64,000 bases of DNA from Chiridota heheva (taxonomy: Eukaryota; Echinodermata; Holothuroidea; Apodida; Chiridotidae), in assembly GCA_020152595.1 (NCBI GenBank), contig JAIGNY010000196.1, positions 480,001-544,000 on the forward strand. Reading direction: 5' to 3'. The first letter of the stretch is position 1; each line of letters starts with the position of its first letter. Below, piece by piece: positions 3,336 to 44,410 of this stretch. A program made the position numbers and the translations under genes. Below the pieces are notes generated by a model, which was not told the DNA's origin, did not search any database, and worked only from the letters and a program-made list of their open reading frames with translations.

Positions 3336-3353
3336 TTATTAATATTATCATAC

Positions 3354-3392: not shown

Positions 3393-3394
<2 letters not shown>

Positions 3395-21202: not shown

Positions 21203-21204
21203 TT

Positions 21205-21867
21205 AAAGGTATATGGACAGGTGGAGATTTTGCCATATATATATTCCTTTACTATTCTGAATATTCATCAACCTATATTTATCAGAAATTTCCACTTGTT
21301 TCTAAGATATTCGCAAAAAAGTGGAAAATTAAGCCCCAAGAAATGACTGGATTTCCACTATTCAAAAAAAGTGTGTGATGTAAGAATAAGGACACAGCGA
21401 GGCCTACAATGCATAACATTCATGGCCGGATTTTTCACATTTCGGGATCAATTTTGTAAGAAAGTGTTTGTGGTGAGTGTTTATGAAGGGCATTTGTATC
21501 AATTTATGCAAAGTGGTTGCTACCTGGCCATATACCTTTGTGGTGAGTGTTTATGAAGGGCATTTATATCAGTTTATGCAAAGTGCTTGCTACCTGTCCG
21601 TATACCTTTGTGGTGAGTGTTTATGAAGGGCATTTGTATCAATTTATGCAAAGTGGTTGCTACTTGTCCATATACCTTTGTGGTCAGTGTTTATGAAGGG
21701 GGCATTTGTACTTGTCCATATACCTTTGTAGTGAGTGTTTATGAAGGGCATTTGTATCAGTTTATGCAAAGTGGTTGCTACATGTCCATATACCTTTGTG
21801 GTGAGTGTTTATGAAGGGCATTTATATCAGTTTATGCAAAGTGGTTGCTACCTGTCCATATACCTTT
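21205..21867. mobile_element. TIR element whose right end is a 70-bp tandem array
   Basis: The left end AAAGGTATATGGACAGGTGG is mirrored by the right end CTACCTGTCCATATACCTTT, and TA flanks both. From 21471 to 21867 the right-end sequence is repeated about six times at a 70-bp period (starts 21471, 21541, 21611, 21681, 21729 truncated, 21799). Each unit has GGTGAGTGTTTATGAAGGGC and the terminal CCATATACCTTT. A 70-bp period shifts frame, so the repeated peptides seen here are not a protein. Confidence 0.85.
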
Positions 21868-22228
21868 ACTGTTGTATTTACTGTTCTGCTTTTCAAATAC
21901 TTTGTAGTCCTTTGGAATCGTGTTTACATTTATCTGTAATGTTTTATTGCTTTCTTCATTTTGTCATTTTAAAGAATTTTGTAAAAAGAAAATTCATGTT
22001 AAGAATTTAACATTGACTTTTGGTAATTATTAGTAATTAGCAATCTCAAGTGTAATAAAAGAAACAATACAATGCATTCGGGTCAAAAGAAATTTGATCT
22101 TAAGATCTGTAAGGACCTTGTGAACCTTAAAGCAATGCTAACTCATAAAGAATACAAGCAAGCAAGTTTTCAGTGGATGATTTTTTGAAACTTCCCTTTC
22201 AATAATATCTCAAATATTTATATCTTCT

Positions 22229-22336
22229 TTAACCCTTACTCTGCCAGCATTTTTTTGAAAATGTGTTTGGGAGGTGGAGTCAAAGATGTGGCACCCAAAA
22301 CGACTTTAATATTGCCGCGTGGTAGAGTAAGGTTAA
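22229..22336. mobile_element. piggyBac-like MITE, array copy 1
   Basis: 108 bp including TTAA at both ends. The left end is TTAACCCTTACTCTGCC and the right end is GGTAGAGTAAGGTTAA (one G lost). TTAA duplication plus CCC...GGG termini is the piggyBac signature. Confidence 0.75.
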
Positions 22337-22471
22337 GCACAGGCTGATTATTGAAGGGTCCTCTGTCTTCCGAGCAGCAGAGTTGGGCTCATTCCACTTC
22401 AGTGACCCACTGGGCCCCCACCAGGATCATGCTGCATATAGTTTTGAGTCGACATACTTGTCCTGAGTTTA

Positions 22472-22579
22472 TTACCCCTTGCTCTACCTGCATTTTTTTT
22501 AAACGCGCTTGGAAGGCGGAGTCAAAGATTTGGCACCCAAAACAGTGATAATATCACTGCGTGGTAGAGTAAGGGTTAA
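22472..22579. mobile_element. piggyBac-like MITE, array copy 2
   Basis: Same element; the left TTAA has mutated to TTAC, the right is GGTAGAGTAAGGGTTAA. It begins 243 bp after copy 1. Confidence 0.75.
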
Positions 22580-22713
22580 GCACAGGCCAATTATTGAAGG
22601 GTCCTCTGACTTGGGAGCAGCAGAGTTGAGCTCATTCCGCTTCAGTGACCCACTGGGCCCCTGCTGAGTTGTGCTGCATATAGTTTTGAGTTGGCACACT
22701 TGTCGTGAGTTGA

Positions 22714-22822
22714 TTAACCCTTAATCTACCAGCACTTTTTTGAAAACGCCCTTGGAAGGTGGAGTCAAAGATGGGGCACCCAAAGCAGCGATAATATCAC
22801 CGCGTGGTAGATTAAGGGTTAA
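22714..22822. mobile_element. piggyBac-like MITE, array copy 3
   Basis: The best-preserved copy: TTAACCCTTAATCTACC at the left and GGTAGATTAAGGGTTAA at the right, perfect inverted ends with intact TTAA on both sides. It ends 64 bp before the exon at 22887. Confidence 0.8.
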
Positions 22823-22886
22823 TGATTGGTGATGTTGCATATGTAGCTGAAATACATCTTTAAAACTCCTTTCTTTTTTTCATCAG

Positions 22887-22949
22887 GGTAACTACCAGCA
22901 GGACAGGGGGTATCCTCGCCCCCCTCAGCAGGGTCAGCGGCGATACTGA
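22887..22949 (+). CDS. Terminal coding exon, SS18/SYT-like (partial gene)
   Basis: This is a 63-nt exon, too short to stand out as an ORF. It is preceded by a good 3' splice site: a pyrimidine tract (CTTTCTTTTTTT) followed by CATCAG at 22881-22886. Read in phase 0 it encodes GNYQQDRGYPRPPQQGQRRY and then TGA. Its Gln/Tyr/Pro/Arg content and GC-rich codons contrast sharply with the AT-rich flanks. Vertebrate SS18 and SS18L1 (BAF chromatin-remodelling subunits with a QPGY-rich C-terminal activation domain) end in GNYQQ. In human SS18 the last exon encodes about eight residues starting with Gly after a phase-0 intron, the part lost in SS18-SSX fusions. The start residue, phase and NYQQ match that arrangement; the 15 extra residues would be an invertebrate extension. 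No other SS18-like exon is visible upstream, so the preceding intron would exceed 22.8 kb. Alternatives are another Gln/Arg/Tyr-rich RNA-binding or coactivator protein. Confidence 0.5.
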   Translation, partial: GNYQQDRGYPRPPQQGQRRY

Positions 22950-23440
22950 GTCACATTGGATGAATCAGCTTGTGCCAAATGGAAGTGATGTTATTGGCTA
23001 CCGTGCACCTCGCCCATGTATTTCTGTTTTGTTTTTGATCTAGAATATTTTCTCTTTCGTTGGTGTATGAACTAGTTCCAAAAAATTATTTTTTACTTAA
23101 AAAGAACCTAGAATTCTAAGGTTAACTCTTATAAGTATGAAAATAAGTATTTTTAGATTCTCAATTAAAAGATTTTTGATACCTGCAAAATTTATTATGT
23201 AAACTTGGAAAGACAGATGAAACCTTTTACCTATCTTATATTATTTCATTTCAGTCATTGATAATGCATGTCCTCTTAAATTTTGATTGGGGATATGGCT
23301 TTGGGGTATGGCTAAGATTCAAACAAATTCTTGCCAGAATCTGCCACTCTCCTTCGAAAAAAGTGACTAAAACACAATGGATTAACATAAGACAATAGAA
23401 AGGTGTGTTTATTCATACATCACATGTTTGTTTATCAACA
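22950..23440 (+). other. Probable 3' UTR start of the SS18-like gene
   Basis: This is the sequence directly after the TGA of the terminal exon. The first 80 bases are GC-richer than the flanks, then it becomes AT-rich. I find no AATAAA; the variant ATTAAA occurs at 23164-23169 and is the nearest plausible polyadenylation signal. The end of the UTR is unknown. Confidence 0.35.
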
Positions 23441-23680
23441 CATTAAAATGGTCAATTTAGAAGCTGGAATTTGAATGTAAAATTTGGTATTTTCATGGAT
23501 TTTCATGCAATGTAAATATTGTAGCTGTTCATAGATTTTATTATTACAATGTCTAAATTCCTTAAATGCAGGTAGCTTCACTCTGATAAATGTAATTGCA
23601 TGTTGACAGAACTCCATGCATTGAACAATGTTATGTGTGAAATAATCTTTTCCATCCACAATTTCCTTTTGTTATTTTAA

Positions 23681-24522
23681 CCCTTAAACACCTGCCGAAT
23701 CGAAAACTTGACTGCAAATTTTTGGGATGTTTTATTCAAGCTTAATTCTCTAAAAAATCCTTTCATTTTCTGTCAATACAAGTTTCTTTTATATGAATGC
23801 TAAGACAATGAAGTTTACTATATAAGAGTCAAACTGATGAAAATATTGACATAAATATGATAATTTTGCAATTTTTCGCAATAATACAGCATTTTTTCAA
23901 CTTTTTTAGCTTGTAATTTTTTGCTTGTGAATAATGAAAATGAAGGATTTTGTAATATGTATAATTAGTTTTGACACTTTTTTAGCTTGTAGAACCTGTG
24001 ACCTTTTTTGACCACTGAGCTGTGTAATAATGAAAATTGTGTTTGAAGGATTTTGATTGTGACATTAAGCTCATATGGGATAGTGTAATGTATAATTATG
24101 TTTTTGCAAAAAATTTCATTGAAAAATTGGTCTAAAAAGGCTGAAAATCATGGAGTTTTGCAGAACTTTTGCCAAAAAAAGAGATTGATGATAGGTACTG
24201 TATTTTTACTCATTGAAGTGTTCACTACTGGTACACATGTTTTTGGACAAAGGAAAGGTCCTGAAGTAAAATTAGTGAGTGTTTGAAGACTGTTTTTTTT
24301 TTGACGATATTTTCTGACATTTTCGTTTTTAGCCATTTTCAAAGCTTACTCCAAAATTCCATTATAACCCTCATCAAAAATATTGGTTTTTGGTAGAACT
24401 AGAATAGCTCTTTCAAATTATACCACGATCAGTGCTGTAGGCCTACAGTAAGGTCCAGATTTCATTGTTTGAAAATAGCACTTCAAAATCCACAATAATA
24501 TTGTCAATCCGGTGTTTAAGGG
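23681..24522. mobile_element. piggyBac-like non-autonomous element, 842 bp
   Basis: The termini CCCTTAAACACC and GGTGTTTAAGGG are perfect 12-bp inverted repeats, each flanked by TTAA (23677-23680 and 24523-24526). The interior is AT-rich with no transposase frame. It lies just downstream of the SS18-like 3' UTR. Confidence 0.8.
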
Positions 24523-24526
24523 TTAA

Positions 24527-25770
24527 ACTTGTCTTTGCTGTGTTGCTAGGGACTTAAGAAGAAAAAAGTAGATTAACTTATTGATTCATCTCTGAATGAT
24601 GGACAATATGGAATTACAAACTTAAAATAATAAGTGTTTTTTTACAGAAAATTTGTAAGTAATTCCAATTTTACCATAAATTGTGTGTTGTCTTGTTTTG
24701 TGTTTATTTGATGTTTTGAACTTAAAGACATTGGAGGCCATAACTTCTGATGTTCCTAAATGATTTTTCATACCATCTACTAATTTTATTCTGTTTTGTT
24801 TTCTGTCTTTAAGAGCAGACAATGAGTAAGTAAACATTTATGAAATATTCAGTAGAATTTTTTATCTTGATTTGTTTCAAATCGATTGAACATTTTTGTT
24901 TAATAACAAACGACTTTGGAATAGAAATATTGCTAACTTCATCACATTTCGAAACTTTGCAACAATTTTAAGGGATTTGTAACCGTTATTTCAAAACGAA
25001 AATTGGTGTTATTTCCTAAGATTAGTCTCCAAGTTTGTACTATTTTTCTTAGTTATTTTAAGCTTGTTTAAATAGAATAATTTCTAAATTGAGGAAAATC
25101 TGAAGTGAAGATTCACTGATTTGCGTTTTAAGGTTCAATTTAAATTTAAACTGAAATTATCATTAATCGACTTCAGGAATAAAGATAAACATGATTTGAT
25201 GACATACAAGGAACTGGTCTTATGTCTGAGGAAGCTTGACAATGCTTCTCATATTTATGATTGCAAAATTGTTAAAAAATATATTAAGAATGGATTTCAG
25301 GCTTTGCTTTGTATTTTGTTGTTTTCCATATGGTCATTGTGCCTCTGCTATTTATTATTGCATTTAACTAGTACTTTGAAGTCCAGCTAAGGTGTTGAGG
25401 GCCAAGGCAGAGGCCCTATGAAACAATCTGTTTCAGAGATGAGGATATCAGATTGTGGTACTTACAACTTTGACATTTTTTGTAATACTTTTCCAGTCCA
25501 TGTTATCAATTACTGTGATAAGATTCCTAAACCATTTTTTTTTTTATAAACTGCTACAAGTGTCACAGTTATGGTCAATACAAAATATTTATTGTGATAA
25601 CCAAAAAGTTAATTTCTTTCATGCACTTGAAATTTTGTAGATATACTGAAGACCATTTATCTTCACGTGGTGTTTCTTGAGATTACTTATCAATTGGATT
25701 TATTGATTATTATTATTTTTTTCCACTTTGTTTTTGTTTCAACCATGCACTACCCCTCTCAATCACAGCT
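24527..25770. other. AT-rich non-coding DNA, nothing recognised
   Basis: Chance ORFs at 25121-25390 and 25455-25640 are AT-driven and match no family. Confidence 0.5.
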
Positions 25771-25774
25771 TTCT

Positions 25775-25915
25775 GATTTTTTGTTCTTAAATTTCTCTCA
25801 TTCTCCCCCTGTTTCCTTTCCTTTCTACCTCTAGAATGATCTAACCTCTCAGGCACAATTTGACCTTCGTTGTCGTAGTGCCATTAAGCCCTCATTAAAC
25901 AAACAAGCAAATTAT
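25775..25915 (+). mobile_element. Possible LINE 3' tail
   Basis: A C/T-rich stretch is followed by GTCGTAGTGCCATTAAGC and ATTAAACAAACAAGCAAA. This resembles the 3' UTR and short-repeat tail of CR1/L2-type retrotransposons. No coding part is present. Weak call. Confidence 0.25.
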
Positions 25916-26385
25916 TTTTTAGCTGAAGCAATTCCTCAATCTTTAAAGGTATATGAACGTGTAGCAGCAACTTATGCTGAGTTGCTTTAATATCCATGAA
26001 AAATGATGAAAATAGCAAAGAAATTCTCCAAATTACTTTAAAATTGACCATTTTAAAGCATTTTTAATTTTCAGGCCAAAACATACACACAAAAATTCCT
26101 CTTTAAGTTCTTGTGATGTATGACAAGGCAGAAATTCCTATTTCCATTTGTAATCCCTTTTGTTTCTTTAATTGCTAGGCACTCATTTGTGAAAAATGGA
26201 AAGGAATTTTAACCAAATGTTTTTAAGTGCTGACCATACCATTAACCAAAATCTAGCGGGAATAGGCTTTGTCATTACTTTCAGGAACTGAAATATATAA
26301 AGAATTACATAAAGCTTTTCAGCTACCCACCCACCTGGTCAGTCATACATCACAAATTGAACATAAATTATGCGTTCACTGCAGA

Positions 26386-26603
26386 CAGTGGCGTAGCCAG
26401 CATTAAAAACGTGAGGGGTCTGAGAAGGTTCTAGACCCCCCTCCCATGACAAGGTGTTCAAATTTAGCCCATTTCCGAGGGCAATTTTGTTTTTTCAAAG
26501 CAAAACAAATATATAAAAAGCAAAGTTTATCCCAATTTTGGAAAAAAATCCTCAAAAAACGAACCCCCTCCCCTCCCCATTCCCCACTTGGGTATATCAC
26601 TGA
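26386..26603. mobile_element. hAT-like MITE, 218 bp, with 8-bp target duplication
   Basis: The ends are CAGTGGCGTAGCC and, inverted, CAGTGATATACCC. The 8-bp sequence ACTGCAGA lies immediately outside both ends (26378-26385 and 26604-26611) without a mismatch. CAGTG ends plus an 8-bp duplication fit the hAT superfamily. No transposase. Confidence 0.85.
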
Positions 26604-26611
26604 CTGCAGAT

Positions 26612-28954
26612 CGTTAAAACTAATCAGTCATTCAAAAACTATACGTGCTAGAAACAAGATTTAAAGACTTGCATTTAGAAAATAATGTTCTTTCTCGTAG
26701 GCTACAAATCTTCCAGGTACATGCAAGTGTGCGAGATTTACATGTGAAATGAGATGCTTGTGCAGAATGCTTTCTAGTATAGCCTGACTCCTCTTCTCCT
26801 CTCTCCAAGAAATTTTGGCTCCTCTTTCAAACGTTCCTATTAAAAACTGTGTCTTTTGTTAAACTTAATCTGTTATTAAACTCTGTCTATTTGTCTAGTT
26901 TAGGATGAGTAACTTCACTGTGTGTGCTTTTGTTTAGACTGAATCACATGAAAGTTTTGTTTATCTGAAAATACCCCCAAAACTAGGTGTAAATTTTCAT
27001 TATTGAATGACAGTATTCAGGTCATGAATATTCATTTTTATGTAAATCAGTGTGATGTCATCAACAGATGTAATACATTTAGTGTATTTTACTTTTTCAT
27101 GTTTGTATTAGCAAAAGACAGGGAACTGAGCACTCCATATTGTTTCCTGTGTGTAAATGTAATCAAAGCATTCCTTGTTATTTTTAAGATTTGAGAGAGA
27201 CAAGCTTTTTTTCTGTAAATGAAATGGAGCAAGGAATTTTATGATGAAGTGTCTTTTTCTAAAGAATTTTAATCTTTTTTTTTTAATTGTGTATGTGAAC
27301 AAACTTACAGGAAATAATAACTGGAAAAACTTACTGTGGTGTCAAGTATGTTTCTTAATGGGATTGTTATATCTCTGACCTTGATCAGAGGTCAGTTATA
27401 AAGTAAATTTTATATTTTAAATCTATTGTTTGATCTTTTAAGTGACATGTCCATTGTGCAATCATGAATGGGACACAACTTTCCAACCCTTATATCAAAC
27501 CACCAAGTACCAGCCCAATAACACTTATGGTTGTTCCAGGAAATACAGTACAAATTGTTACTTTTTAAATCAAATTGGTATTTTTGTTATTTTAATCCTC
27601 ATGTGCGGGACACAAGTTTGCATCACCCTCCACCAACCCATGGAGTTTCAACCAGTTAGCTTGTACAGTTTTTGTACATGGCACAAAAAAATGCATTCAA
27701 GTACACAAACCCACACACAAAAGTGGTACAATACCTTACCACTATATCTGCTATTTGCTGCCATTAGGTAAAAACACACTGTCAGTTCATGCATTTTCTT
27801 AGCTTGGTGATTATGATGCCTGGTCTGCTGAAAAGTATATGGACAGGGGTAAAAAGATTCTTCCCTACTTCCTTTTAATTAACTAAAGAGAGCACAAAAT
27901 CCAATTCAAGCCTTTAAGTTTGAAAATAGTAGATTTAGATTTAGAGATACAATTTTGATTATGCTATTAGGATTTATGCCTAAAATTTGTGACATAGGCC
28001 TATGAGTGGGAAGGTGGCTGAATTGTTTTATGCAAATCTGTGTGTTTGTTTCCTTAATTTCAGTATTTTGGATTGTTTTCTCCTCCTAGATATTGGCTTT
28101 GGGTATGGCAAAGCTCACGAGACCTTTCAGTCAGAATCACCTACTAACCAAGCAATTGTGGTACATATATTTTTTTAACCAGGATTTGCATCAGAAAATA
28201 AAGAGTTCTGCCCCTTCATACATCACACATTTGCATTATGTTTTGCATATTGATTCTTACAAATTTAAAAACTGTAAAACAGCCAATTTTAACCCAATTT
28301 GATAGGAATTTGTGCTATTTTCATTTTTGATGTGGGTTTTGAAGCAATTTAGCAGCAAAGTTACGTCTACCTGTCCCTAGATCTTAGCAACTCTTGAGAG
28401 TGACACGTTGAATTGGAAGTGATTAATCATGACGATAGGTGCTTACAAATTCTTAAGTTTGATTGAATAATTTACTTTTTATGATTTGCAGAAACAAAAT
28501 TAATGGACAAAAGAACCAAATTTTAGAACAATATAGTAAGATAAATGAACTTCTACAAGGAATTGACTAATTACAAAGGCATTTTAAGGTGTATGATCAA
28601 TTAGGCAACTCAGCTCATAATGAGTGAAGTTCACTAGACCTTTTGTAAGTGTGCACATTTTCTTTCAGTATACTGACAAACTGATTACTGCCATGAGCCC
28701 TATATGGGGCAAATGTCCCTCTGCATTGTATTTTCAAAAATGCTCTACACATCCCTGAATATGATTGAAAATTATAATAGCAAAAACATTGGATAAAACT
28801 TGACGTGTAATAGATGCATGTGATATTAGAGTTGTGCCTCGTCCCTTGACACTCTATGCTAGCCCATGGATTTATAAATGTGGAAGGATTTGATGAAAAT
28901 ATCAAATTTATTCAAACAATTTTCATGGGCAGACATTTTCAGTAGACATGAGGT
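26612..28954. other. AT-rich DNA; one weak TIR candidate
   Basis: A possible element of the 21205 type may span about 27831-28378, with AAGTATATGGACAGG at the left and CTACCTGTCCCTAG at the right, but the ends are poorly matched. Nothing else recognised. Confidence 0.3.
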
Positions 28955-29060
28955 TACAATCGTGGCCAAAAGTCTTGGGACAAAACTGCTCAAATATTTT
29001 AAATGGCACCCCCCTCCCCCTCTTCCCTTTTAATGTTGTGCACTTTGCAAAACACAGGGA
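28955..29060 (+). mobile_element. Tc1/mariner-like element, left end only
   Basis: CAATCGTGGCCAAAAGTC follows a TA. The first 100 or so bases match the left part of the complete element at 30326, including TTTTAATGTTGTGC. The paired right end was not found nearby. Confidence 0.55.
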
Positions 29061-30323
29061 AGGGGCATCTAATGTCATACCCTTGTACGTACTTTTTCGG
29101 CAAGCCCTTCATTTAAAAATCGAGAGTATTGTTTAGATTAAATAAATAATGAAGAAAATAACCGTTGTCGGCAATTTTGAATGTTAAGAATTGAAGACAT
29201 GTTGACGACTAAGCACCATATTAGAAACTCCCACAAACGTTGGGATAAGTGTGCCACAATTCTGGAAATAATTATCCGATTATTTTAGTGGCATCGCAAC
29301 TTGGTCTTTTGCACTACTGCAAAGTTGAGGACAATCGATTTGCAATAAATCCTGTCGTTTTCTGTTATTTTTTAACTTAAAAAATAATCTTTTTAAGTCT
29401 CATAAGGAACTTAAATTTGATCAATATATACTATCCACATCTCTCTAAAGGACCGTATTTAATTTCACGATATTCTTTAGAAAAGAACAATTTGCACTAC
29501 ATGTAAAGCTTGATCTATAGCTTACTCTTTGTTTATTATTTGCCGCAAACCGTGATATGCATGCTTTTGCATAGGTACATGCCACAAACCGTCAAAGGGT
29601 GTGCACTTTGCATAGTAAACCCCTTGTGAATTAGTGTTTTTATATGCAAATGACTTTTAAATTATCATGTAATGTGTTCTTTCACGATGGTACATTCATT
29701 TAATTCATTATTTAGAATGTGCCACAAACTTAAAGAAATATGCAAATATCCTAGGAAAATGACCAAAAATCATTCATGTAATCAAAATTAATAGAAATTA
29801 ATTTTAAAATCTGTGATTATTTTATCAATTGAAAAGTCAACATCAATGGTGAAAATTCAGCGCTCAAGCTGTCTATCTAGCATTCAAGTTGATATAGGCC
29901 TACAGAATGCTTCCACTTAGTTGGCAGTTATCATTTACGCCCCCTCCCCTGACCATTTCTGCCATTGTTTTTAATCCAATGCTGATTGACCCCTCATCAC
30001 GTCCTGCCCTTCATTCTTACTTACGCCGCACACTCCTCCCCCTCCCCACTCAGATAAATGATCTAACGAATGCTTTTTAATATACATGAGGATGAAATGT
30101 TATTTTCCGTCATTCTATGTATAATTTCTTTGAAAATTTTCGAATACATAGTTCAGACTAAATCTCCATTAATCATTTTCTGCAGTCTCATCGCTGCCTC
30201 CTGCTCAATTTTACACAACCCACAACATGCTACCTGTTCCCTGTCGACTTAATTCTTTTAACTATCATTTTCTTAATCCTAATGGTATCCATATTACTTC
30301 CATATACTTTGTACAGGCGCTCA
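29061..30323. other. Non-coding DNA, nothing recognised
   Basis: No transposase remnant is visible, although the distance from 28955 to 30499 is close to a full Tc1 element. Confidence 0.4.
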
Positions 30324-30325
30324 GA

Positions 30326-30499
30326 CAATCGTGGCCAAAAGTGTTAGGACAAAACCGCTCAAAAAATTAAAACAGCATTTTTCTCCACCTTTTTTTCCTT
30401 CACCGTTTCAATGTTGTGCGCTTCGAAAAAAACATGACAAAATACGACTTTCAATCAAGAAGAGTGAGGATTTGTCCCAACTACTTTTGGCCACGATTG
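30326..30499. mobile_element. Tc1/mariner-like MITE, 174 bp
   Basis: Inverted ends of about 30 bp: CAATCGTGGCCAAAAGTG with GGACAAA at the left, TTTGTCC and ACTTTTGGCCACGATTG at the right. TA follows the right end; the left flank reads GA, probably a mutated TA. The CGTGGCCAAAAGT wording is typical of Tc1-like ends. Confidence 0.85.
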
Positions 30500-33400
30500 T
30501 AATTAAGCAGTTGAGTTGCCAAACAGCGTTTTGAAACACTGGTGAAAAACTGGTCGCTGAAGCAACGATATTAACAAATGTGGCTTATTACAATGGCTGT
30601 GATGACAACTTTTTTTTTTCATTTTTGTTCTGCTTTTCAATCAACTTAGCTTTCATTCTTTCAAATAAGACTAGCAAAAAATTCCCTAACAACCACCATC
30701 TGTTCTTTAATGCAAATTGTGTGTTTTGTTCACTAACAACGTCAGTGAATTTTAGCACCTTAAAGAATATGATATATTAATGTTACATTACATTAATGTT
30801 ACATTACAACGTATGAAATGGTGACATTTAAATGGTGAAATACGTCCCCACTTTTGGCAGTTTTCTCCAAAAAGGCTCAAGAATAACCATCAACCAGTCA
30901 ACTGTAATAATATTCTTGTGAATGTAACATTAATTGATTATTGATTTATTGTTTCCTTAATTCAATGGATGAAACTTTTCAAAAATAATGAAAACATTAA
31001 TGCCGGTAAAAATGTGAAGGTAAATATCAATTTTCCTGTCGGACAATTTCTGCTATGTTGTCGTGACTACAAAATAATCATAAAAAGATAATGTTTTTAT
31101 TCAGGCGGGACTTGTGTTTGATGTCTGTGTTAGACCCTACCCCAACCTCGTTTTAGGAGGCAGGCAAAAAGACACGAAAGTTAAAATCACCTGTCAGTAA
31201 AACTGGGTAATAACACAGTTAAATGACTCCTTTGTTTAGATCTGTATTCTCAATCCTTATGGACACATTTATCTCAATTTTCAGCTAATATCAGGAAAAA
31301 CTTTATGGTTTGAGCAAAGTCTGAAATTATTAATGCCAGTTTAATTGCTACTCAATGAGAAACTATAACACCAACGGAACGTGAACACACGTATGAGTTT
31401 TGCAGAGCTGGTAAAACAATCTCCAGATTGCCAGGTAAATGCATTGCTTAAATTATTGCAAGAGCCGTTAAAACAAGGAATGAAAAATGTTCCTGCAAAC
31501 AGCCATTAATACTGTAATAATATATTCTCAAGAGAGGCTTTATAACGGAAAAACCTTTTGAAAATATATTATTTAGTATAAGTGAATATGACGCCTGCAC
31601 CACATTTGCGATTGCCATCAGCCTGCCAGCTTTTTGGTGCACGGGGAAAAAAGTGCCCTCCATTCTGCCATTGCACGGGACACAAGCCTGTAGACAGGTA
31701 TTTAAAAGAAGGGAAGGAAGGGGGTTGTTTTTCGTAATATAAAGGGCAACAAACTTTCAAATTCCAAGTGCTTATTATTTTTTTAGCTTTCAAAACGGCA
31801 CGGACGAATCTGGCTATGGGCCTGGGACAAGGTGATGTCATTCATAAATAAAGAAATCGGAAATTAATACACTATTGACTAAGCCACTTTCTTTCCTCCT
31901 GCCTTTACCTTAATCTTCACACAGTGCTGATTTTATAGGAATGTGCGACCCTGTACTTATACCGTATTCCTAATAGTACCTGTTCTAAATTATCTAAATG
32001 AAATTTTAAAAAAAACATGATGAACTGTTTAGGTCCTTGTGTTGGATCCTTTGGGCGAGCGCCCGGTTGCACACCATTCGACACTGCTACCCTACTCCTG
32101 CTGTCCTGGGGCCGGATTAGGTTTTGTTAGGGCCGAGGCATAAAGTAATTTGGGCCGGTCTCAACATCAATCTGGAGTAGAACAACGAATTCTGGAGTGA
32201 AGAACATATGCGGACGGGACTCGGGGAGCGATATTCCCTCATACATGACAAAAGAAAATTAAACAAAGTGGGCAAAATTAACGACCCCAAACAGCTTCTC
32301 AGTCTCTGACTTTTTGGCCAATGTGTGAAGGGCCTGTAAACATCAGGGGCTGTGGTATATTCCCCTTTTAAACCGCTACTGCCCACTCCCCCACCAACTC
32401 TCTCAACCCTCCCTTACCTCCTCTCCCCAACCTTTTAAGATCCAAACAAGTTTGCAGTTTTAGGTCATAATTCAGGGTACCTGAAAATGGAAGTAAGTAC
32501 GATTCGGAAAAGTTACTTGTCAGTCCTAAAAAAAAAAGACCGGTTATGCGAATGTCTTTAACTGTGTTTGTGTTACCTAATACAGTAAGATAATACAGTA
32601 ATACAGCCTGCTAGTAACTGAATTCTATATAAGTGAGGAACGTGGCATTCCTATATTAGTCAAAGCGTATGTTTCTTTACCAAATGTGAATATTAAATCT
32701 TATCAATACACCTGCTCCTGTAATATATGCAAAAGCCTGGTTAAGCTGTTGAGGAAGTTACATAAAAAAGTTGAAGTTAAAACCAATTCCGTAAATAAGC
32801 ATTATACCAATAGAGACAATGATTAAAGTAACCGTAACTCATTTCCATGTTTATTGTACGTGAGCCGGCTGTGTACATATACTGCATTAAAAACTTCTCC
32901 GTTGTAAAATTTGAACTTCTCTGACGAATTTGAGGTGGAAAATAGAATAAAAATTCCTCAACTATTCTTAAGATTATTGGCGACATTCGATCATACATGA
33001 CACTTGGCTCTGATCTTCAATTGCTTCATCTGCGGGTTTAAGTGTTTGATGGTGTGAGTGATGGGCGGTAAAAGCCACAAAGTCAAATATAATGATTCTT
33101 AGTGAGATAGGAGAGATTGTTACCCGCACCTGTAGCCTATTTCAACAACACTCGCCGATACACTATCGATCGGCGACGGATCCTACGTCTTCGCGAGCAC
33201 GGGATTAAGACACTCAAATACGGCAAAAAGTCCTTTCCTCACGAAATGGTAATTTAGATGGTTTTTGCGTTAAAGTACGATTTAGAGATTAATTTTGGCT
33301 TTAACTGGTATATGATATTCTGCATCAAAGACAAGGTTTATTACTTCGGTTGAGGTTTTGGAAAAAGTATTTCATTTTTGTTTTCTTACTTGGCGACATA

Positions 33401-36400
33401 TATCTCTATTAGTTGAGAAACCTTTAAAGGTCTACTATTTAGAGTCAGCATTTGATAAATTACTTTAAAATCTATTCCAAACCATGGATGAAATGAGAAA
33501 TTATCCGTTAAAGTTTACCATTTGTTTTACAGCTTTATGAATTTTTAGCATCAATGCAATCAATATGCAATTTTTTTGTGGGTGATTGTGATGTAAAACT
33601 GGGCCGTCTTGGCGTTTCTTATATGCTAAATCCTTTGTTTTGGGATGCAGCAAATTAGGAGCATTTAAAGACAAATTTGTTAGATATCCAGTTTTGGCAA
33701 TTTCATGTATACAACGACCAATAAGCAAAATGGTAATTGACTGTTTGAAAATATTGGATCAAACTATCGAACGGAGAATCTGGAGGAAAAAACCAACACA
33801 ATTTCGATCTATCGTTAAGGTTTATATAGTCTGAAAATGAAAATTATTGGCCTGCAATTTTCCACCCCCCTCCCCTTTCTCTTCCCCGCGAACGCCCCGT
33901 CAAATTTACAATATATATTATATGTACAGGTCGAGTCTCGAGATTTTTTCGGCCATACGACCACGTCGATAAATCCAGCAATTCTCAGTAGATTATGATT
34001 TTGTAAATGACATGAAAGATCACTTGCGAATGCTATGATCTTTTCAAAATTGAATCGTCCATATTTAAAGCGACAACCCATGCAACATGTGCAGAGGGAA
34101 GAGAGACCTATCATCAGATCATCAATGATTTTGATGAACTATGTTTTTATGTCACTGTTTCCAATAATTTCCACCCAAAAATGACAAAAAGCATAAAGCT
34201 GTCAATCTGGAAAGTCCCCTGCGGGGCCAACTTGTAGCTCATTTTGACCAGGTGTATAGCTTGTTCTGTATTTGGAATTCAGCCTTCTTGGGTTCTTTAA
34301 GGATTTGCTTCTAAGAGTAATTTGGAAAAAAGTGTTCTATGATAGTTTGTCCCGTATTTGGAAGCTTCTCTTTTTGTAACCTTTCATAAGAGTTGTACAA
34401 TAGCGGCGATTTGTCATGAAAGGTTATTTAAACATGTTAACGTCAATCTAATATGTTTCCCTGCTTGAAAATAAGAAATTTGTCGCCTTTCATCAAAATC
34501 ATAATAATGAACTATGAAACTTTAATGAATTACGAATAAATAAATTACGAACAAGGTTGATTTAAAAAATAAACATTCAGGGTTTTTTTTAATTTTTTTA
34601 TAGAAATAAGTCATACATGGTTACGGAAAATATCACGAGAAACCCCTATTTAGATTATCTGAATAAAATCTGATAATGTGAAAGCGTGCTGCTTCTTTCT
34701 TCTTCTTTTTTCTATATGTGTTCATTTATTTATTTCATACCTTCAATAATTGATCTACTTCATTGTATTAAAAGAACACTACACATAAAAGCGACAAAGT
34801 ATATGCTCGCATTCTGAATAAAATCATTGATGATACTGACAGACAAGATAAGGCTGAAAATTAAATTTCATCCGACAATTATTAGGACTACTTCATCTCC
34901 GACGTCTCTCGGCCGCGTGTGCTCCCCTTTAAATTGACTTGTAACATGACCATGAGTCTCGGAGGCATTCCGTTTTAATTTATGCATTTTCGCTGTAAAC
35001 CGGCTCGAGATTTGGCGATCCCGTAACAGCAACACAATTTTCCCCTTTCAATCGTAGCTTCAGGGTTTAATAATCACAAGCCTCCTCTCTCCCTTCTCTC
35101 TTTAGCCGAAAGTAATTTATTTTCCAATTTTCTTCACTTTTTCTTTTCTTTTACACAACAGAAATAGAAAAAGGAGACGTATTAGAATTCAATTCAATGT
35201 CTCATTTCACCGACCTAATAGCCTATTAGTATTCTTATTTTATACGAGTTAAGTAAACAGAGATTTTCATTTTTTTGCCTCGAGAAAGACATGAAATGTT
35301 TTTGTTAAACAAAATAGCCAGGGATATAATAAGATTGAAATCAAGCGCAAAAAGTCAATGACTGTTATATCTAATTTCTCAAGAATATTAGTGAAATTAC
35401 ATAACATTTCATTAACGGTAATTGGCTGTGTTAACCTTAATGAAGGTGAACAAGGAGCTCATTTGCTGAAGGAATATTAATAGCACCGCCAAAACCACTT
35501 GAAAATTAGATCGACGAAAACTCATGATCATTGTTAGGAGTTATTATGAATCTCATGATATGAACAGATATTGTTACAATGCTTTTATTGAAAAAAAGTA
35601 AAAATGATTTCAGATAATATATTTTGTATTGTTTAACTAATATTATGGTAATATATCGAGTTTGTCTTTTTCGATAAAGACGTTTGCCCGTTCATGATTC
35701 GTACAAAAAAATGCATAATTTGCATAAAAAATTGCATGTTGGCATCTTCCATGGACAATTTTTTGGGCAGGCCTACACATGATATATTTTCACGAATTGT
35801 ATCCCGCTCAGTGGAATTTCAAAGCAAAAATTAATTCATCTTAATCAATATTTCGAAGTACTCTATCCGTTTCTTTAACATACGCTCACAAATTTCACGA
35901 CGCATTTAAGACATATTAAGAATTATGCAAAAAGGGAAAACATTGACTCTGAAAATGAGATTTTTTTCCTATGTGGGGGCTCAAGCTGCTCCTCATTCCC
36001 TGCCGCGGGATAACCCAATACCCCCTTCCTATTCACCGATGCCACCTGGTGCTTCCATTTGTACTTCGGCATTTTCATTAAAAATGGCCTATACATGTTA
36101 TGATGCGGCATGTATCATGACAAATGGAGTACACATTGGCGGACATCAGAGAAATTCCTCTCCCAAACTGTAACAAATTGCGTTTGGGTGGAAACTTGGT
36201 CGTTTGAAACTGTTAGGTTGGCAATATTCATACAAAAAATAGAACAATAATAAGACAAATGCAAAACACTTTTTTCACATTCAGTTTTGGCAGTTTGGGA
36301 CGTACGTTGGCTGTTATTTTCATCGCGTACCATCGGAGGGGCAAGGACAATTTGGCCCTCCCGCCTTCCTGAAATAAAACATGCCTTTAAGCAGTTAAGT

Positions 36401-36479
36401 AAAACGTGCACATAGATCTAAATTGGCATGCAACGTTTATATGGCACCGTTTAGGAAATTGCATAAAGTCAGTGTTTCA
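30500..36479. other. Intergenic DNA, 6 kb, no gene recognised
   Basis: Mostly AT-rich and unique-looking, with short GC-richer islands near 31590-31700, 32040-32400, 33140-33200 and 34900-35000. Minus-strand frames at 31569-31841 and 32117-32386 match no family I know. This stretch could hold enhancers of either neighbour, but sequence alone does not show it. Confidence 0.4.
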
Positions 36480-36935
36480 AATCTAAGGACAAAGCAAATT
36501 TCCTGAAAATGAAGGAAACTTCCGCAGAATGAAGAAAATTAAACAAAAATTAAACAAAAACTTCCTAAATATTGAAGCAATTATCCCAAAATAAAGGAAT
36601 TTCCCGAACATTGTAGAAAATTGTCTAAATATTGAAGAAAAAATCCCCAAAATGAAGGAAATTTTACGAAAATGGAAGAAAATTTTCGCAAAATGCCGAA
36701 AATTGAAGAAAATTTTCCAAAAATTGAAGACAATTTTTTAAATATTGAGAAATTATCCCTAAATTATAAAAATTTTACAAAAATGGAAGCAAATTTTCCG
36801 AAAATGAAGGAAATTTTCCAAAAATTGAAAAAACTTTCTAAAATTGATAAAATTCCTGAAAATGAAAGAAATTCCTGAAAATTTCAGGAGAATTTCCAGA
36901 AATTGAAAGATATTTTTCGGAAATTGGGGAGAATT
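36480..36935. repeat. Degenerate A/T/purine-rich minisatellite, about 21-24 bp
   Basis: Repeats of the form GAAAATTTTCC, AAAATTGAAG and AAAATGAAGGAAATT. The same words in inverse orientation occur at 52870-53025 inside the ATT-bearing element. The open frame here is incidental. Confidence 0.75.
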
Positions 36936-37739
36936 CCCGAGGAAAATAAATTCGTAAGACGGTTTTTTTTGCGAAGAAAAGAAAAAAAAAAAAAGGGGGG
37001 GGGTGGCAAATTTGTTTAAAATTGTTTTTACTCTGTAGGCATGATATAGGAGCGAAGGCCGCGAAGAACCGGTGGGGACCCGAGGGTTTTCGGGAAGCCC
37101 GGGCCTACGTTTTTGTGGTTTTGATAGCAGAAAAGGGCTTTAAAACGTGTCACATCTATGGGGCGAAACTGCTGGTAGGGGCGCTGGGAGATAGCAGAAA
37201 ATGCTTAATCAAATTTGACGTCCTAGTAGGCGTTTTTCGGCTTAGTTTTGGTAGCAGAAGATTGCTTAAAGTTGTATCAATTTTACACTAAAATTAGTTA
37301 AAAGGAGTATATATTTTGGAACAAATGTAGAATCCCATTGACTACAATGTGTGTCTTTAATTTGGGTGACGACTAGGGATGGTTTTCATGTTTTTGATGT
37401 TAGAATAAAGTTTGAGAGAAAACATTTTCAGCGTTGAGAATAAAAAGTTACAAGCTATCTCCATGCATCTTCTATGCGCGAAATCCAATGGTTGCGTTTG
37501 GGATGAAGTCCCGGAAATTTGGTCTTTTCTGTGGAAATTTTATGCGCTTTTGGACGACAAAAATGGAATATTACGTGCAAATAGTATATAAGAAGAAGTT
37601 ATTGATCAACACATAAATTTTCCCAGGGCTAAAAAAAATATAATTCCAGGACCATTTTGGCGCCCCTTGAGCACTCGGCGCCTTCTCAGAAAGCTTCGCT
37701 GGGGTAAGTTGCCCCCGGCCCCCTGCCACCACGCCACTG
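36936..37739 (-). mobile_element. hAT-like transposon fragment, family copy 2
   Basis: The end at 37739, read inward on the minus strand, starts CAGTGGCGTGGTGGC and shares about 100 bp with 4079-4185. The rest includes an A/G run (36970-37010) and a GC-richer body. The opposite terminus could not be identified, so the left boundary is arbitrary. Confidence 0.45.
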
Positions 37740-38815
37740 CCTATAATGAAGTAGCTCTTTAATCAATTCAAAGCACAAACGATTTGAATAAGACCAATTA
37801 AGAAATCCCTTAAACCCAGACCGTTTAAAAACCACCCATGAAGTCACCGAAAAAAAATGGAAAACAAATTACAGCGCAAATAATGATCAATTAAACCACA
37901 TCGCACACCTTCAGAGTTGTCCTTGGGTTACCGTTCTACCAAGGGACAATTCCCGATCATCAAGAAATCTTTTTTGACTGACACTCAACTCAAACGTCAA
38001 ATTACAGATCTATGAAAACGGGTTATTATTGTAATCCATAAAATCCTCAAAGCTTATGTCCAAATAATGAGATTTCAGGTCTTCCATCGTAACAAGTGCT
38101 TGTAAGGTGCGAAAGAAGCCTAAACTAGACATTTGGATCAAACACCTCAATGGGTTCTGTCCTGCATTGGTGACTAATAAGTACCTTTCCATAAGGCGGT
38201 CCCGCTCTCCTGTAGCGAGAGTATTGTACTGGAAATAGGCGGGAACAATGGTTATTGACCATTGTGAAAACACGCACTGAAAAGACATTCACGTCTGCTA
38301 AACGTTTTATCGATATCTCAAATAAAGGTTCAACCAATAGGCTATTATAGTTTATAAATTTATAAGGTTTTCCTGTTTTTCAAATACAGGGCATGAGTGA
38401 CTTTAAATTCCTTGAATTTTCCTGGCTATTGTTAAGCCTTACGGAATTGTTGATTAATTGAACTAATAAATAGTTATTAACAAGTTTAATCCATCTACAA
38501 TTCACGTCACACTGACTTTTGACCTGTTTCCTGATGGTTGGCATAACACATGAATCGTTTTAATCAACTTAAACAATAGTAATAATCTGGTGGTCGAAAT
38601 TAGATGTATCAGAAACAAGAAAACAGTTTATGGTTGTATGGCCGGAATGTAAACTTTAACTTATTAAACCCCAAATTACTTTTTTCAGTCACTGTTCTTG
38701 GAAAACAACAAATAAACGATTTATTTGTATCACCTTACACGGTCAGACGGAGTCGCGTATAATAATAATTTGTCCAATTTACAAATTACGAGTGTTCCTG
38801 TACTATAGTGCCATA
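37740..38815. other. Intergenic DNA, no gene recognised
   Basis: Overlapping minus-strand frames at 38010-38337 have fairly even composition but resemble no family and lack splice context. Confidence 0.4.
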
Positions 38816-38819
38816 CCAC

Positions 38820-38989
38820 CAGCTGACCAGAGGCGCAATTAGAGGTCTGGAAGCCCGTGGGAAATTTAGCCTTCAGGGGCCTCATAACAAACATATCGCA
38901 GTGTCATTGCTTGGGGCTCCTCAAATCTCGGTTTTTGCTCGGGGCCCGTGTGGTTTACCCACCCTTCCCACGCTATTGTTGCGCCCCTG
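38820..38989. mobile_element. Candidate small TIR element, 170 bp
   Basis: Right end (inverted) CAGGGGCGCAACAAT; left region CAGAGGCGCAATTAG at 38828. The flanks CATACCAC (38812-38819) and CATACCAT (38990-38997) agree at 7 of 8 positions if the left end is placed at 38820. A CATACCATGTA-rich low-complexity tract follows to 39060. Confidence 0.4.
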
Positions 38990-39361
38990 CATACCATGTA
39001 CCATGCATACCATACCATGTACCACAACATGTACAGTATTGATACAATACCATGTATACACACAAACTTGATCACCGCCGACTGAAAACTTTGGGTTTTT
39101 CCTTTTTGAAAAATAAAGTCCTTTCTCCGATTGGGAAATATGGTTTTACATTAAAGGTTATGAGAAATATTGTCGTTGCAGAGCTATCCACAATTATGTA
39201 ACTAATATGTTTTTACTAATTCCTAAAAAAGGTCCACTAGTTAGGCTTATTAAAAGATACTTAAAACTTAAGCTATTGAAAAATTAAACATTTCTACGGT
39301 AGTGGGATTCGGAACATCAATTGAATCTGTGCTGGTTTACCCTGAATTGCGTTCATTTAGC

Positions 39362-39645
39362 GTATACTGCCGTGTGGTGCAGTTGCTCGGTACCTGAGGA
39401 GTCATGCTCCTTACAGTGCGAAGGTGTATACCGGGTTCCACTTCCTTCACGATCACTGCATTGTTAATCTACTTGCCTTGCTCCAGTCCACTACTCAGCA
39501 CATGTAAAATGAGTATACCAGCAGTGTTGGGGAGTTAACATGCGATGGACTGGCGTCATATCCAGGGGAAGTCATGTGCTGTCATCCGCTTACCCCAAGG
39601 GTTAATAAGTACCGGCATGATGTGTCTGGCTCAGCTCTAGTACAG
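39362..39645 (+). mobile_element. tRNA-derived SINE with conserved 3' module
   Basis: The head at 39372-39445 is tRNA-like, with a degenerate A-box region (TGGTGCAGTTGC) and a B box near GGTTCCACTTC (39434-39444). The 3' part has GGACTGGCGTCATATCCAGG, TCATCCGCTTA, AAGTACCGGCATGATG and GGCTCAG. That series resembles a 3' domain I recall from SINEs of many aquatic invertebrates (CTGGCG, CCAGGGG, ATAAGCNCCGGC, GGGCC). It is a different family from the SINE at 11275. Confidence 0.7.
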
Positions 39646-40027
39646 TAGTATGGACTTCACTTTTTGACAGTACTGCCGTACGGTAGAGTGTGTTATATGA
39701 GGGCTCATCTTTCATTTTTATTGACAAGCGATGTTATCTACAGTTCATAATTCCCTCCAATCTCTGGATGGTCCATTCGCGGTCATAAAGAAAATTAGCT
39801 TAATTTTATCAGTTCTTTGTTTACACGAGCTTATATGAGGGATGTGTATCAACTGGTAGATTTCCTTTAAAGTGAAAAGTACACAGTTGCTTCTAATCTC
39901 TGAATAAATGTATGTATTGCCCCTGACTTTGAAACGATTCTTAATTTAGAAGAAAGATCATTGACGATTTGGGATCGTCTGGAATTAACCTTTTACAGTT
40001 TTAGTTAGTCAAGGTCTTCTCAGGCAG

Positions 40028-40228
<201 letters not shown>

Positions 40229-40759
40229 TTTGATCAAAAATGATCATGGACGAAGTTGATCAAAAAGTTGCTGATGCTCAAATAAAATAGTAGAGGACAC
40301 GAACATCAGAATAGTTGTGATAATCAGTCTTATATTTTCCTCGCCCCTGTAAAATAAAAAAAAACCTGACTGCGCTACACATAGCTGTACTTAATTTAGT
40401 CACATCTGTGAAAAGATAGTTGAGCTGGAATGCTTAGAGGTATATGAACCTAAAGGCAACATTACACAATAGCTCAATTTAGGCCTATGACCACCATGAT
40501 ACAGTAGCAAAAATTAGAGTAAACATTTACCATTTTACCAGTTTACAGCGTTTTGAAATCTCATTCATCAATCTGCATATCATATGCAAATTTTTGGATG
40601 TATTGCACGGCGACCTTAGGTTTTTCATTTTCTAAATCCTTTTGTTTTTACATGTGTGTCATAATTCTTTGAGGTGGTGCGGCATCTTCTGACCAAAAGG
40701 TTTTGAGTTTTTGCCATGTCCCTAAAACAATTCTTGCAGGAATAGACTTTCTCATCATT

Positions 40760-41314
40760 CAGTCCGGTTCGTACCCCCGATAGGGAGAACAATTTTGTTC
40801 TCCCGATCGGGAGATCCTTTATCCCACAATGTATCCCACAATGCATCTATTCAAATTCAAAGTTTGCGTAGGAATAACATAAGAACCAGACACATTTCGA
40901 GCGTGGGGAACTTAATCACTGCCTGACTGCGAAGTTTTGTTCGGGAATTATTTTTGACTAACGTAGTAGGCTAACGTTGTCAAAAACTTTTAAATGTTTT
41001 TTTCTTCAGAAAATCTTGATCAAACTCGACTGCCTAACGGCAACACATAATACGAAGTCACTACTTTTCTTCCAATTTCTCGAAAATTCCAAGGTTTAAT
41101 TTTTAAAGCGCACGGTGAAACGATTTCAAATCGTGAAAAAAAATTGGAACCTTTCGCAGTGGTTGAGTTCCCCGCGCTGAAAATGTGTCTGATTCTTATG
41201 TTATTCCTATGCAAACTTTGAATTTGGATAGATTCATTGTGGGATACTTCTGTAAAGGATCTTCCGATCGGGAGAACAAAACTTTTCTTCCAATCGGGGA
41301 TACAAGCCGGGATG
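40760..41314. mobile_element. Long-TIR element, 555 bp, CAGTCCGG family, TSD TCATT
   Basis: Ends CAGTCCGG (left) and CCGGGATG (right). Inverted arms of about 130 bp include CTCCCGATCGG, ATCCCACAATG, AAATTCAAAGTTTGC and TAGGAATAACATAAGAA. TCATT flanks both ends (40755-40759 and 41315-41319). The paralogous copy at about 42245 lacks the element. No transposase frame. Confidence 0.9.
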
Positions 41315-41641
41315 TCATTTGCAGTAACTAAAATTTAGGAAATGTAAATAATAACATGTAGATTTTGAGCCCAATCATGCATCACAAATTTCAGACGAAT
41401 TAAGAATTGGTCTAACTTTGATCAGCCCTTATTCAACAACTATAATTGCTTTTGATTTCAAAATTGAAGAAATTGATCTGCTTAGATTTTAATGTTCTTT
41501 GAACCAAAATCGGTACATATCCATGTGCTCTAAGCCAACAAGATCATCTAACAAGTTCTGAAGACGTCGAAACCAATATGTGGATATTATTAACAAAACA
41601 AATATGTGTTCTGTCGAATAGGGAAAAACGTCTGAAATTAG

Positions 41642-42180
41642 GTGTTAAGACAATTAACCTTTCCAGGTTTTCAATTAGGCCACGCCCACCATAGCAACGA
41701 CGCGGTAACTATGTGGGGAAAACAAACCTCAAATCCGCAATTGTGCATTACCAATGCATTGACATTTAGCTTAACTTTGATGTTCGAGAGGCCTCAGTCG
41801 CAAGCTTTGATACATTTATGGCACTTCTCCGGATCTTTAGAGTTTTTAGCAAATGGGAAAAACAAAATTCAGTTTGCTAAATGTTCTGGGTAACAGCTAT
41901 CAGATTTATAATGCCCGCAGTGGGCCCGTAAGCGCAATTTTTGTTCACCCTTTAGCCGTCACTCAGTCTCTGTGTGCAGAAATTTGTTTTTCACAGTAAG
42001 TTGCATTGACTACATAAGCGCGCAGCTAGCTAGCTGTATTGTACCGGTACCGCGTAGAATGTTTGCACCACTTAGTTACGCAGATTTTGTTGCTAGGAAA
42101 ATTCATGCGGTGATTGGTTAAAACAAGCTGTCAATCATTAAACCCAAAAAGGTTCATTATAGAATCAGTTATCGGCCGGG
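41642..42180. other. GC-richer intergenic stretch
   Basis: Contains GCCACGCCCACCATAGCAACG at 41681-41701, which joins a GC-box-like CCACGCCC to an X-box-like half site (CGTTGCTATGG on the minus strand). No transcript evidence; could be a promoter, a distal element or chance. Confidence 0.2.
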
Positions 42181-42302
42181 CCGAAATTATGACCAAAACT
42201 TTTACAATTCCCCAATCAAATCTTATTAGGAGTAGACTTTCCCATGCATAGACTAAAATTTAGGAAAGAAGTTTAAACAATTACATAAAGATTTTGAGCC
42301 AT

Positions 42303-42618
42303 AAAAGATTTGCGCCCGCCGCCCACACAACAGCGATGTTCGTTTCTTTCACATGTAAAGAAAGTCGAATATCTCAAGATTAAACTGCTTCCTTGACGTC
42401 TTGACCTACCAGGACCTCGACGGAGTGACACTATTACCTCTGAATCCCCACCAAAACTATACATATAGTGTACGACACTGTACGTACGGAGTTTATTTCG
42501 GGAATGGTTTAAGTGGACACAGCGTGTACATTTAAAAACAATATTGAGTGAGGGCGCTGCGGGTAGCAATGCCGTACATGTCGGGGCACATATTGGCATG
42601 CTGTCTGCCCTGTCATCT
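42303..42618. other. Unassigned about 315-bp insertion in paralogous copy 2
   Basis: Absent from copy 1 at the corresponding point (41375). GC content is clearly above its flanks. No inverted ends or target duplication found. A minus-strand frame spans it but matches no family. Confidence 0.4.
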
Positions 42619-43329
42619 GGTCATTCTTATGAATCAAAAACTGATCTTACTTTGATCAGCCTTTATTCATCAACTAAAATTGCTTCTTTTTTGTTTTTGA
42701 TTAAAGAAATTAATCTGCACAGATTTTATTGCTCTTTCAAGTAATATAGAATTGCTACATGCCCATAGACCATAAAACCAGCAAGATCATCTAACAAGTT
42801 CTGAATGCATCGAAACTAATATGTGTGTATTATTCACAAGACAAATATATGTTCAGTTAAATAGGAACAAAAAACGTCTAAAATTAAGTTAAAACTATTC
42901 TAGTCTCTATATATAATCCGTTATCCAATCATATTGATCGGGTTAATCAATTTGTTTCTGGTTTATAATTAGGGTTGTTGCATAATAACAATTCTATAAG
43001 CATGTTGCTAATGAAAGATTTCCAACATAACAGATGGAACTTAACTTTCAATCCGGAATTCTTTAATGAAAAGAAATTGCTTCAGGAAATAAGGGGTGAA
43101 AAAATCAATTGACGATGTATATATAGTATTTTGGGAAGCTTAGGTTATAAATGAATGTTTGTTTGTAATGGTCAAACATGTGCATATGGTTTCATGTACT
43201 ATAAAGGACAATTAAAGAAAACAGATTGGTGAAAGAAATCTTTGATACCTTAAAGTCTGCTTAGACAATCTTGAATTTCAAAGATTAAGTATGTTTATAA
43301 GTAAGTGGGGTATAGTAAGTCTAATTTAG

Positions 43330-43911
43330 ATGATTAGTTTAGTGGTCAAGCAAGTGTATCTTATCTGAAAGATGACTTTAAAAGAAACAAAATGGTGAAG
43401 GAAGCATTCACAAATCCTATTCCGTTGAAGAGATATTCGAATTTGAACTCTGTCTTATCTATGTTTAAATGACTGGTGTAGTAAGTCTACTAAGGAAAGT
43501 TGGCGTCCTGTCCTCATATTCTAAAGAAAAAATTATGTATTGAAAAAAAAAAATTGTACAACTTTTGTACTCTATTAATTATTTTCCCTCAAACTTTCTT
43601 CAGGTAGTAAATTATCATTATTCTTACTAGATTCTGTTTTACTACTTTTCAGACACATCCCATGGTTTATAAGCCACAAAATCGCAGGACAAAATATGAT
43701 AAGAATGCATAAAGACTTTAAATAATGTGAGGCTGTGACGTCACAATTATTCGATTTCAGTTGTTTCTACAAAAATGATATCAAATTTTAAGCTTAAATA
43801 TTTCCTCAAATAAGATTTTTGAATGCTTTTATCTGTTCATTGCCATTTTGTTTCTTTTGAAGTCCTCTTTTATATAAGATATACTTGCTTCACCACTAAG
43901 CTAATCCTTTA
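43330..43911. mobile_element. TIR element (AAGGATTAGTTCAG family), copy 2
   Basis: Left arm 43330-43445 (GATTAGTTTAGTGGTCAAGC, AGAAACAAAATGGTGAAGG); inverted right arm 43790-43911 (CATTTTGTTTCTTTTGAAGT, CTAATCCTTTA). TA lies at both ends. The interior matches copy 1 (TTTATAAGCCACAAAATCG here, mirrored in the interior of 18871-19425). Confidence 0.85.
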
Positions 43912-44410
43912 AGGGAATAAGATTTTTGAACACTTTCTTCACCATTTTGTTTTTTTAAAGTCCTCTTTCATATAAGATGGACATGCTTGACCACTGAAGT
44001 AATCCTTTAACGGAATAAGATATTTGAACACTTTCTTTACCATTTTGTTTCCTTTGAAGTCCTCTTTCATATAAGATGGATATGCTTGACCACTGAAGTA
44101 ATCCTTTAACGGAATAAGATTTTTGAACACTTTCTTCACCATTTTGCTTCTTTTGAAGTTCTTTTCCATATAAGATGGACATGCTTGACCACTTAACTAA
44201 TCCTTTAACGAAATAAGATTTTTGACACTTTCTTCACCATTTTGTTTCTTTTGAAGTCCTCTTTCATATAAGATGGACATGTATGACCACTGAACTAATC
44301 CTTTCCCGAAATAAGATATTTGAACACTTTCTTCACCATTTTGTTTTTTTTAAGTCCTTTTTCATATAAGATGGACATGCTTGACCACTGAACTAATCCT
44401 ACTCCTTTAA
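43912..44410. repeat. Tandem array of the element's right arm, 98-99 bp, five units
   Basis: Each unit runs GGAATAAGAT, CACTTTCTTCACCATTTTG, GTCCTCTTTCATATAAGATG, CTTGACCACTGAA and AATCCTTTAA. The AATCCTTT marker falls at 43903, 44001, 44100, 44199, 44297 and 44395. The units are right-arm copies without left arms or interiors. Confidence 0.92.

Follow-up and report, generated by a model that had tools for sequence, protein, structure and literature searches.

We analysed a 64,000-nucleotide stretch of the Chiridota heheva genome (contig JAIGNY010000196.1, positions 480,001 to 544,000; hereafter the window) that holds three families of small transposable elements, E1, E2 and E3, and found that transposon termini have repeatedly been amplified into satellite-like arrays in two of them, E1 and E3, at many loci, much as a first-pass annotation had proposed. 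Several classes of junction occur in these arrays, junctions and units are mostly locus-specific, both ends of the elements are affected, and interior arrays are few. We favour the reading, at a probability of roughly 60%, that the E1 and E3 arrays arose by microhomology-linked duplication at transposon ends followed by unequal exchange. Microhomology-linked duplication near the ends accounts for most of what we observed in E1 and E3, and the arrays were apparently founded separately at different insertions in the two families.

The three window arrays are present as first described, with Tandem Repeats Finder (TRF) scores of 421 to 902. We searched the window's own assembly (1.10 Gb, 3744 contigs) with the array-bearing E1 (best 40 of 1360 candidates scored) and with the E3 element plus its array (best 40 of 18354), both samples being biased to arrays, with the whole E2 array (best 40 of 4791, biased to trimers), and with two single-ended queries, namely a single-armed E3 copy from the window (best 40 of 10922, biased to single arms) and the E1 copy of locus L039 (best 40 of 1675, biased to single ends). 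Beyond the window, 39 loci were read for E1 and 20 for E3, the latter being the top of the array-bearing query's list.

Judged from their sequences, E1 and E3 appear to be small non-autonomous elements with TTAA targets and AGG...CCT ends, resembling Kolobok-type miniature inverted-repeat transposable elements (MITEs), so that two of the three families, first taken to be unrelated, are alike in kind. Many E1 and E3 copies are flanked on either side by the TTAA target-site duplication typical of Kolobok. The accessible part of PMC6004289 gives terminal RR (AG) for Kolobok and AGGRR for T2-MITEs; the E1 end (AGGTA) and the E3 end (AGGAT) carry the terminal RR and agree with AGGRR only in part. 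For piggyBac-like MITEs and CMITEs, the part of PMC2872659 available to us names TTAA plus a CC[C/T]T terminal motif, which the outer ends of E2 display (TTAA-CCCTT) and the ends of E1 and E3, beginning with AGG, do not.

The window copy of E1 (21207..21865, forward strand) is internally deleted, being without an interior segment that its relatives have (gap at query 218/221). It retains perfect 19-nt inverted termini (21204-21222 and 21850-21868), and is flanked by TTAA on the left (21203-21206) and TTAC on the right (21866-21869). Many copies elsewhere in the genome read TTAA/AGGTATATGG...CCATATACCT/TTAA, slashes here and below marking boundaries. Its right-end array (21467..21864, forward strand) stands as first reported save for its start, which we place at 21467 rather than 21471, and consists of six right ends with units of 70, 70, 70, 48, 70 and 70 bp, joined at CATATACC/TTTGTGG. 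Among the 40 loci of the array-biased sample, window included, at least two right units occur in 31, one in five and none was found in four; the single right unit of L045 is degenerate, and the longest terminal array reaches 37 units. Right-unit length varies by locus (70, 71, 74, 61, 66 or 83-85 bp), and the right junctions comprise five named classes and an 83-85 bp class, whose unit in L034 takes in bases past the terminal TTTAA. In the single-ended copies L039 and L041, AAGTGTTTGTGG precedes the unit and the end reads ATACCTTTAA, and the 70-bp junction ATACC/TTTGTGG can therefore form on TTT. Of the four single-ended copies measured (L037, L039, L041 and L046), three are free of TTAA over the 200 bp next to the right end, and the fourth, L046, has one at 98 bp. 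In L010, three blocks of E1 right arrays about 694 bp apart (2343-4275) constitute a higher-order duplication.

The first-pass annotation had held that in two cases only right arms were copied, with left arm and interior spared, and of this only the relative rarity of interior copying survives. Within the array-biased sample, left arrays were identified in six loci by TRF and in L036 by BLAST spacing (TRF arrays near E1 being assigned by position for the right arrays of L022, L025, L029 and L036 and for part of the left array of L011). With the single-ended query, extra left ends appeared in seven of 40 loci (C1814, C1804, C569, C3431, C736, where it is partial, and two places on C826) as against extra right ends in three (C826:4932765, C3206 and C3267), or four if the possible case in C220 is counted, and about 30 of the 40 loci were single-ended. 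The comparison of left with right arms that the first-pass annotation had named as a refuting test thus gives the right end no privilege. The commonest left junctions, up to two per locus, read ATTAA/AGG or nearly so, and single-ended copies carry CATTTCATTAACAT inside the left end; the E1 left unit thus spans from TTAA to TTAA. Only one interior TRF array was met among the 40 E1 loci. Set against the expectation from length, six left arrays versus one interior array give a binomial p of 1.7e-5. This value takes 499.5 bp, the median over 30 loci, as the interior length, treats loci as independent and ignores detection limits.

E3 also carries arrays of its termini. The window element (43326..44398, forward strand), whose outer TTAA sites are degraded, begins with a left arm (43332..43430, reverse strand) that is the reverse complement of the arm unit and 81-87% complementary to the right arms. 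The innermost right arm lies at 43809..43906 (forward strand) and is followed by five further right arms (43907..44398, forward strand; 98, 99, 99, 98 and 98 bp) with TTAA in four of five junctions. A second window copy (18871..19404, reverse strand), which served as the single-armed query, has one right arm and a truncated left end, and a third, shorter copy (55733..56010, forward strand) has single arms. Copies at many loci read TTAA/AGGATTAG...CTAATCCT/TTAA, and an extra TTAA marks the arm's inner boundary (CTCC/TTAA/CGG). Tandem arms number at least six in each of the 20 fetched loci, with a maximum of 56 (L057), and lie at both ends in three, L052 (7+9), L053 (2+7) and L063 (5+12), which likewise counts against copying of the right arm alone. 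The interior is reversed in L063 and probably also in L068, so that the longer array sits at E3's own left end. TTAA is present in 237 of 266 adjacent right-right junctions, the tetranucleotide itself occurring at about 0.01 per base. Besides the 98/99 bp junction class, there are classes of 110 bp (L056, L060, L067 and L068) and about 118 bp (L069), both starting at additional TTAA or TTTAA sites deeper in the element, as read in the window copies. With the single-armed query, 38 of the 40 best loci had no further right arm, while C1397 and C826:4312566 have part of a second one abutting the end. In this sample, biased to single arms, most members of the family thus seem to lack arrays. Locus L041 (around 1484-2030) has an E1 element inserted into an E3 arm at its inner TTAA, which is also where the units of E3 arrays are bounded. 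The idea that the window's five extra arms cannot derive from its own innermost arm was considered and dropped, and we claim neither origin. The innermost and left arms share two substitution sites, and a single gap column where the alignment was trimmed, that are absent from the array; on a rough estimate the two sites can be chance.

Units and junction types that are mostly locus-specific point to local growth. We could assign a class to 320 of the 353 adjacent E1 junctions and dropped the other 33; class was identical in 2396 of 2626 within-locus pairs versus 15711 of 48414 between-locus pairs. The nearest relative of an E1 unit lay in its own locus for 58% of units (4.7% when shuffled), and for E3 right arms the corresponding figure was 78% of 278 (8% when shuffled; L065 and gappy units left out). 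Copy number also differs between the homologous loci L019 and L043, about 90% identical across both flanks, which carry five and two units. A pairing of L017 with L025 as one insertion was discarded, their likeness lying within left-array units and not in the flanks.

Under this reading, some 60-120 bp of a terminus would be duplicated head to tail at a single insertion. One breakpoint would fall at or beside the element end or the flanking TTAA; the other, further inward, would use an internal TTAA in E1-left arrays and in most of those of E3, and TTT or hardly any homology in E1-right arrays. The ends may have suffered breaks or stalled replication forks that were repaired through microhomology, and from two copies onward unequal exchange or slippage would grow and homogenise the array locally, from 2 to 56 units. 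We infer both the trigger of the first duplication and any involvement of transposase. Inspection of the junctions for microhomology, as first suggested, showed TTAA at E1-left and most E3 junctions, and TTT or almost no homology at E1-right junctions.

The prevalence of TTAA fits another reading as well, in which the element inserts into the TTAA bounding, on its inner side, an arm of its own family, giving end/TTAA/arm, and recombination between the duplicated left parts then deletes the rest for a net gain of one arm; transposase, not slippage, would set the TTAA boundaries. Just this form is seen in the commonest E1-left junctions and in most of those of E3, E2 and E3 elements adjoin at one shared TTAA in L055 (where the trimer sits at the E3 end) and L058, and the reading stays in play because in L041 an E1 element has inserted at precisely this TTAA of an E3 arm. 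The uncollapsed arrangement, left arm-interior-left arm-interior-right arm-right arm, was nevertheless not found in the 20 array-biased E3 loci, and the E1-right junctions, having no TTAA, would need another mechanism; we regard self-insertion as unlikely. A related claim, that each self-targeting event, or each end cut repaired at TTAA, adds one end-to-TTAA unit and that transposase preference thereby sets monomer length, follows from an arm being bounded by a target TTAA inside and a duplicated TTAA outside; we hold it as a tentative, rather doubtful proposal.

Several observations weigh against microhomology-linked duplication followed by local exchange. The 61-, 66- and 74-bp E1-right junctions have little or no microhomology. 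In four of the six single-copy E1 left ends measured (L030 and L038 left out), a closer TTAA lies at 43 bp and is unused in the left arrays read, which neither microhomology duplication nor self-insertion explains. All six right arms of the window E3 have their nearest unit in another locus, although AACACT occurs in four of its five outer arms and a one-base-shorter form in the fifth, a variant seen three times in other loci. Loci L064 and L065, 96.7% identical, both keep nine units, so array change is not fast. Finally, one junction, J70, outnumbers all others in 15 of the 28 loci with classed junctions (L009 being a tie), and the J70 loci could share one founder.

This last observation would suit arrays carried by transposition, whereby founders already possessed at least two ends and loci differ by later change only. 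The similarity of E1 left junctions across loci is likewise compatible with such carriage, and E2 does spread in this way (see below). Against it, junction classes and units are mostly locus-specific, single-ended queries recover mostly single-ended loci (E3 38/40, E1 about 30/40), and the left-arm tree is star-like with low support and leaves the classes ungrouped; by left-arm path, the rows closest to the window E1 are L039 and L037, both with one right end, at weak support. We therefore judge carriage by transposition to be distinctly improbable as the general origin of the arrays.

Rolling-circle amplification or events at terminal hairpins, among the mechanisms first put forward, seem very improbable. 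Head-to-tail arrays are compatible with circles; however, reinserted circles should give free arrays, and in all 20 fetched E3 loci the array is joined to an E3 interior. Those 20 loci, from the top of the list for a query of element plus array, are biased to the element, and outside them lie six more loci with arrays for which few or no matches to the element were listed. Satellite DNA likewise implies long arrays detached from a parent element; here arrays reach 56 units, and those of the 20 loci are attached. Nothing we saw pointed to hairpins or circles, the junctions instead displaying short homologies, with TTAA in E1-left and most E3 arrays.

The E2 array is a separate phenomenon from E1 and E3, namely a composite in which three piggyBac-like MITEs alternate with two spacers and which has been dispersed whole. 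In the window, the composite (22229..22822, forward strand, TTAA at both outer ends) runs MITE-spacer-MITE-spacer-MITE, with elements on the forward strand at 22229..22336 (ending AGG-TTAA), 22472..22579 (starting TTAC-CCCT; 80.4% identical to copy 1 and 87.0% to copy 3) and 22714..22822. The elements measure 108-109 bp with ends TTAA-CCCT...AGGG-TTAA, two of six ends being altered; the spacers measure 134-135 bp and the period is 243. Identity within the window is 80-87% for elements and 86% (115/134) for spacers, and these similar values indicate that element and spacer aged together. In this trimer-biased sample, 36 of 40 scored loci, window included, match the full trimer, stopping no more than 10 bp short of either end, and E2 is therefore a dispersed unit rather than the product of growth at the window locus, which sets it apart from the mechanism first supposed to be shared by all three families. 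The other 35 trimer loci are 81-84% identical, ten of them with additional long matches alongside, and elements with no spacer match occur in L035 and L014.

Other repeats occupy the window. A 19-bp unit array (11950-12264) and a shorter array of roughly reverse-complement units (12342-12513) form an inverted, foldback-like pair; a 24-bp unit is repeated about 100 times at 12821-15251; 54 copies of an 82-bp unit fill 48237-52708, two units of which had no match in the fetched loci; and at 62009-62581 a recent triplication has left three copies of a 191-bp unit that are 99-100% identical. One coding-like stretch (63425-64000, reverse strand) may correspond to the C-terminal part of an NK2.1-type homeobox protein, and another (22881-22946, forward strand) to an SS18-like last exon. 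Pfam returned no match for either or for a set of 10 reading frames, nor did a structure-sequence search for the former.

Arguments on how transposons give rise to satellites mostly start from completed arrays. In this genome, single-ended copies occur alongside copies with a few units and with 56, together with several founding junctions readable to the base, and these coexisting stages let the founding and the growth of arrays be studied apart. In the literature searched, with most subscription papers outside it, we met no terminus-containing units with several junction classes in one genome, mostly TTAA-flanked. Microhomology and recombination have already been proposed for such arrays, in the accessible parts of PMC12628747 and PMC9659126, which explain the MITE arrays of miDNA4 in Xenopus tropicalis by microhomology at short direct repeats; miDNA4 is a Tc1/mariner MITE with an internal repeat, unlike E1 and E3. 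The coral CMITE arrays, as the available portion of PMC2872659 describes them, resemble E2 in being tandem piggyBac-like MITEs of about 100 bp with TTAA and similar spacers, whereas E2 is a dispersed composite rather than an outcome of repeated local slippage. For E1 and E3, related cases are already in print. Tetris TIR-220 of Drosophila virilis (PMC4079207, seen in part) shares with them tandem repeats within inverted repeats and satellite-like growth, and shows allelic copy-number change; it differs in being of foldback type with repeats inside a separate outer domain, and the accessible text mentions no TTAA-bounded units. Xenopus Xmix is a T2-MITE presumed to be Kolobok that carries an amplified internal segment, Xstir (PMC6004289, in the part available): like E1 and E3, it is a TTAA-target MITE with terminal RR and an amplified tandem segment, its ends reading AGGRR, but the Xstir unit is internal, whereas the E1 and E3 unit holds a terminus, at either end and with several junction classes.

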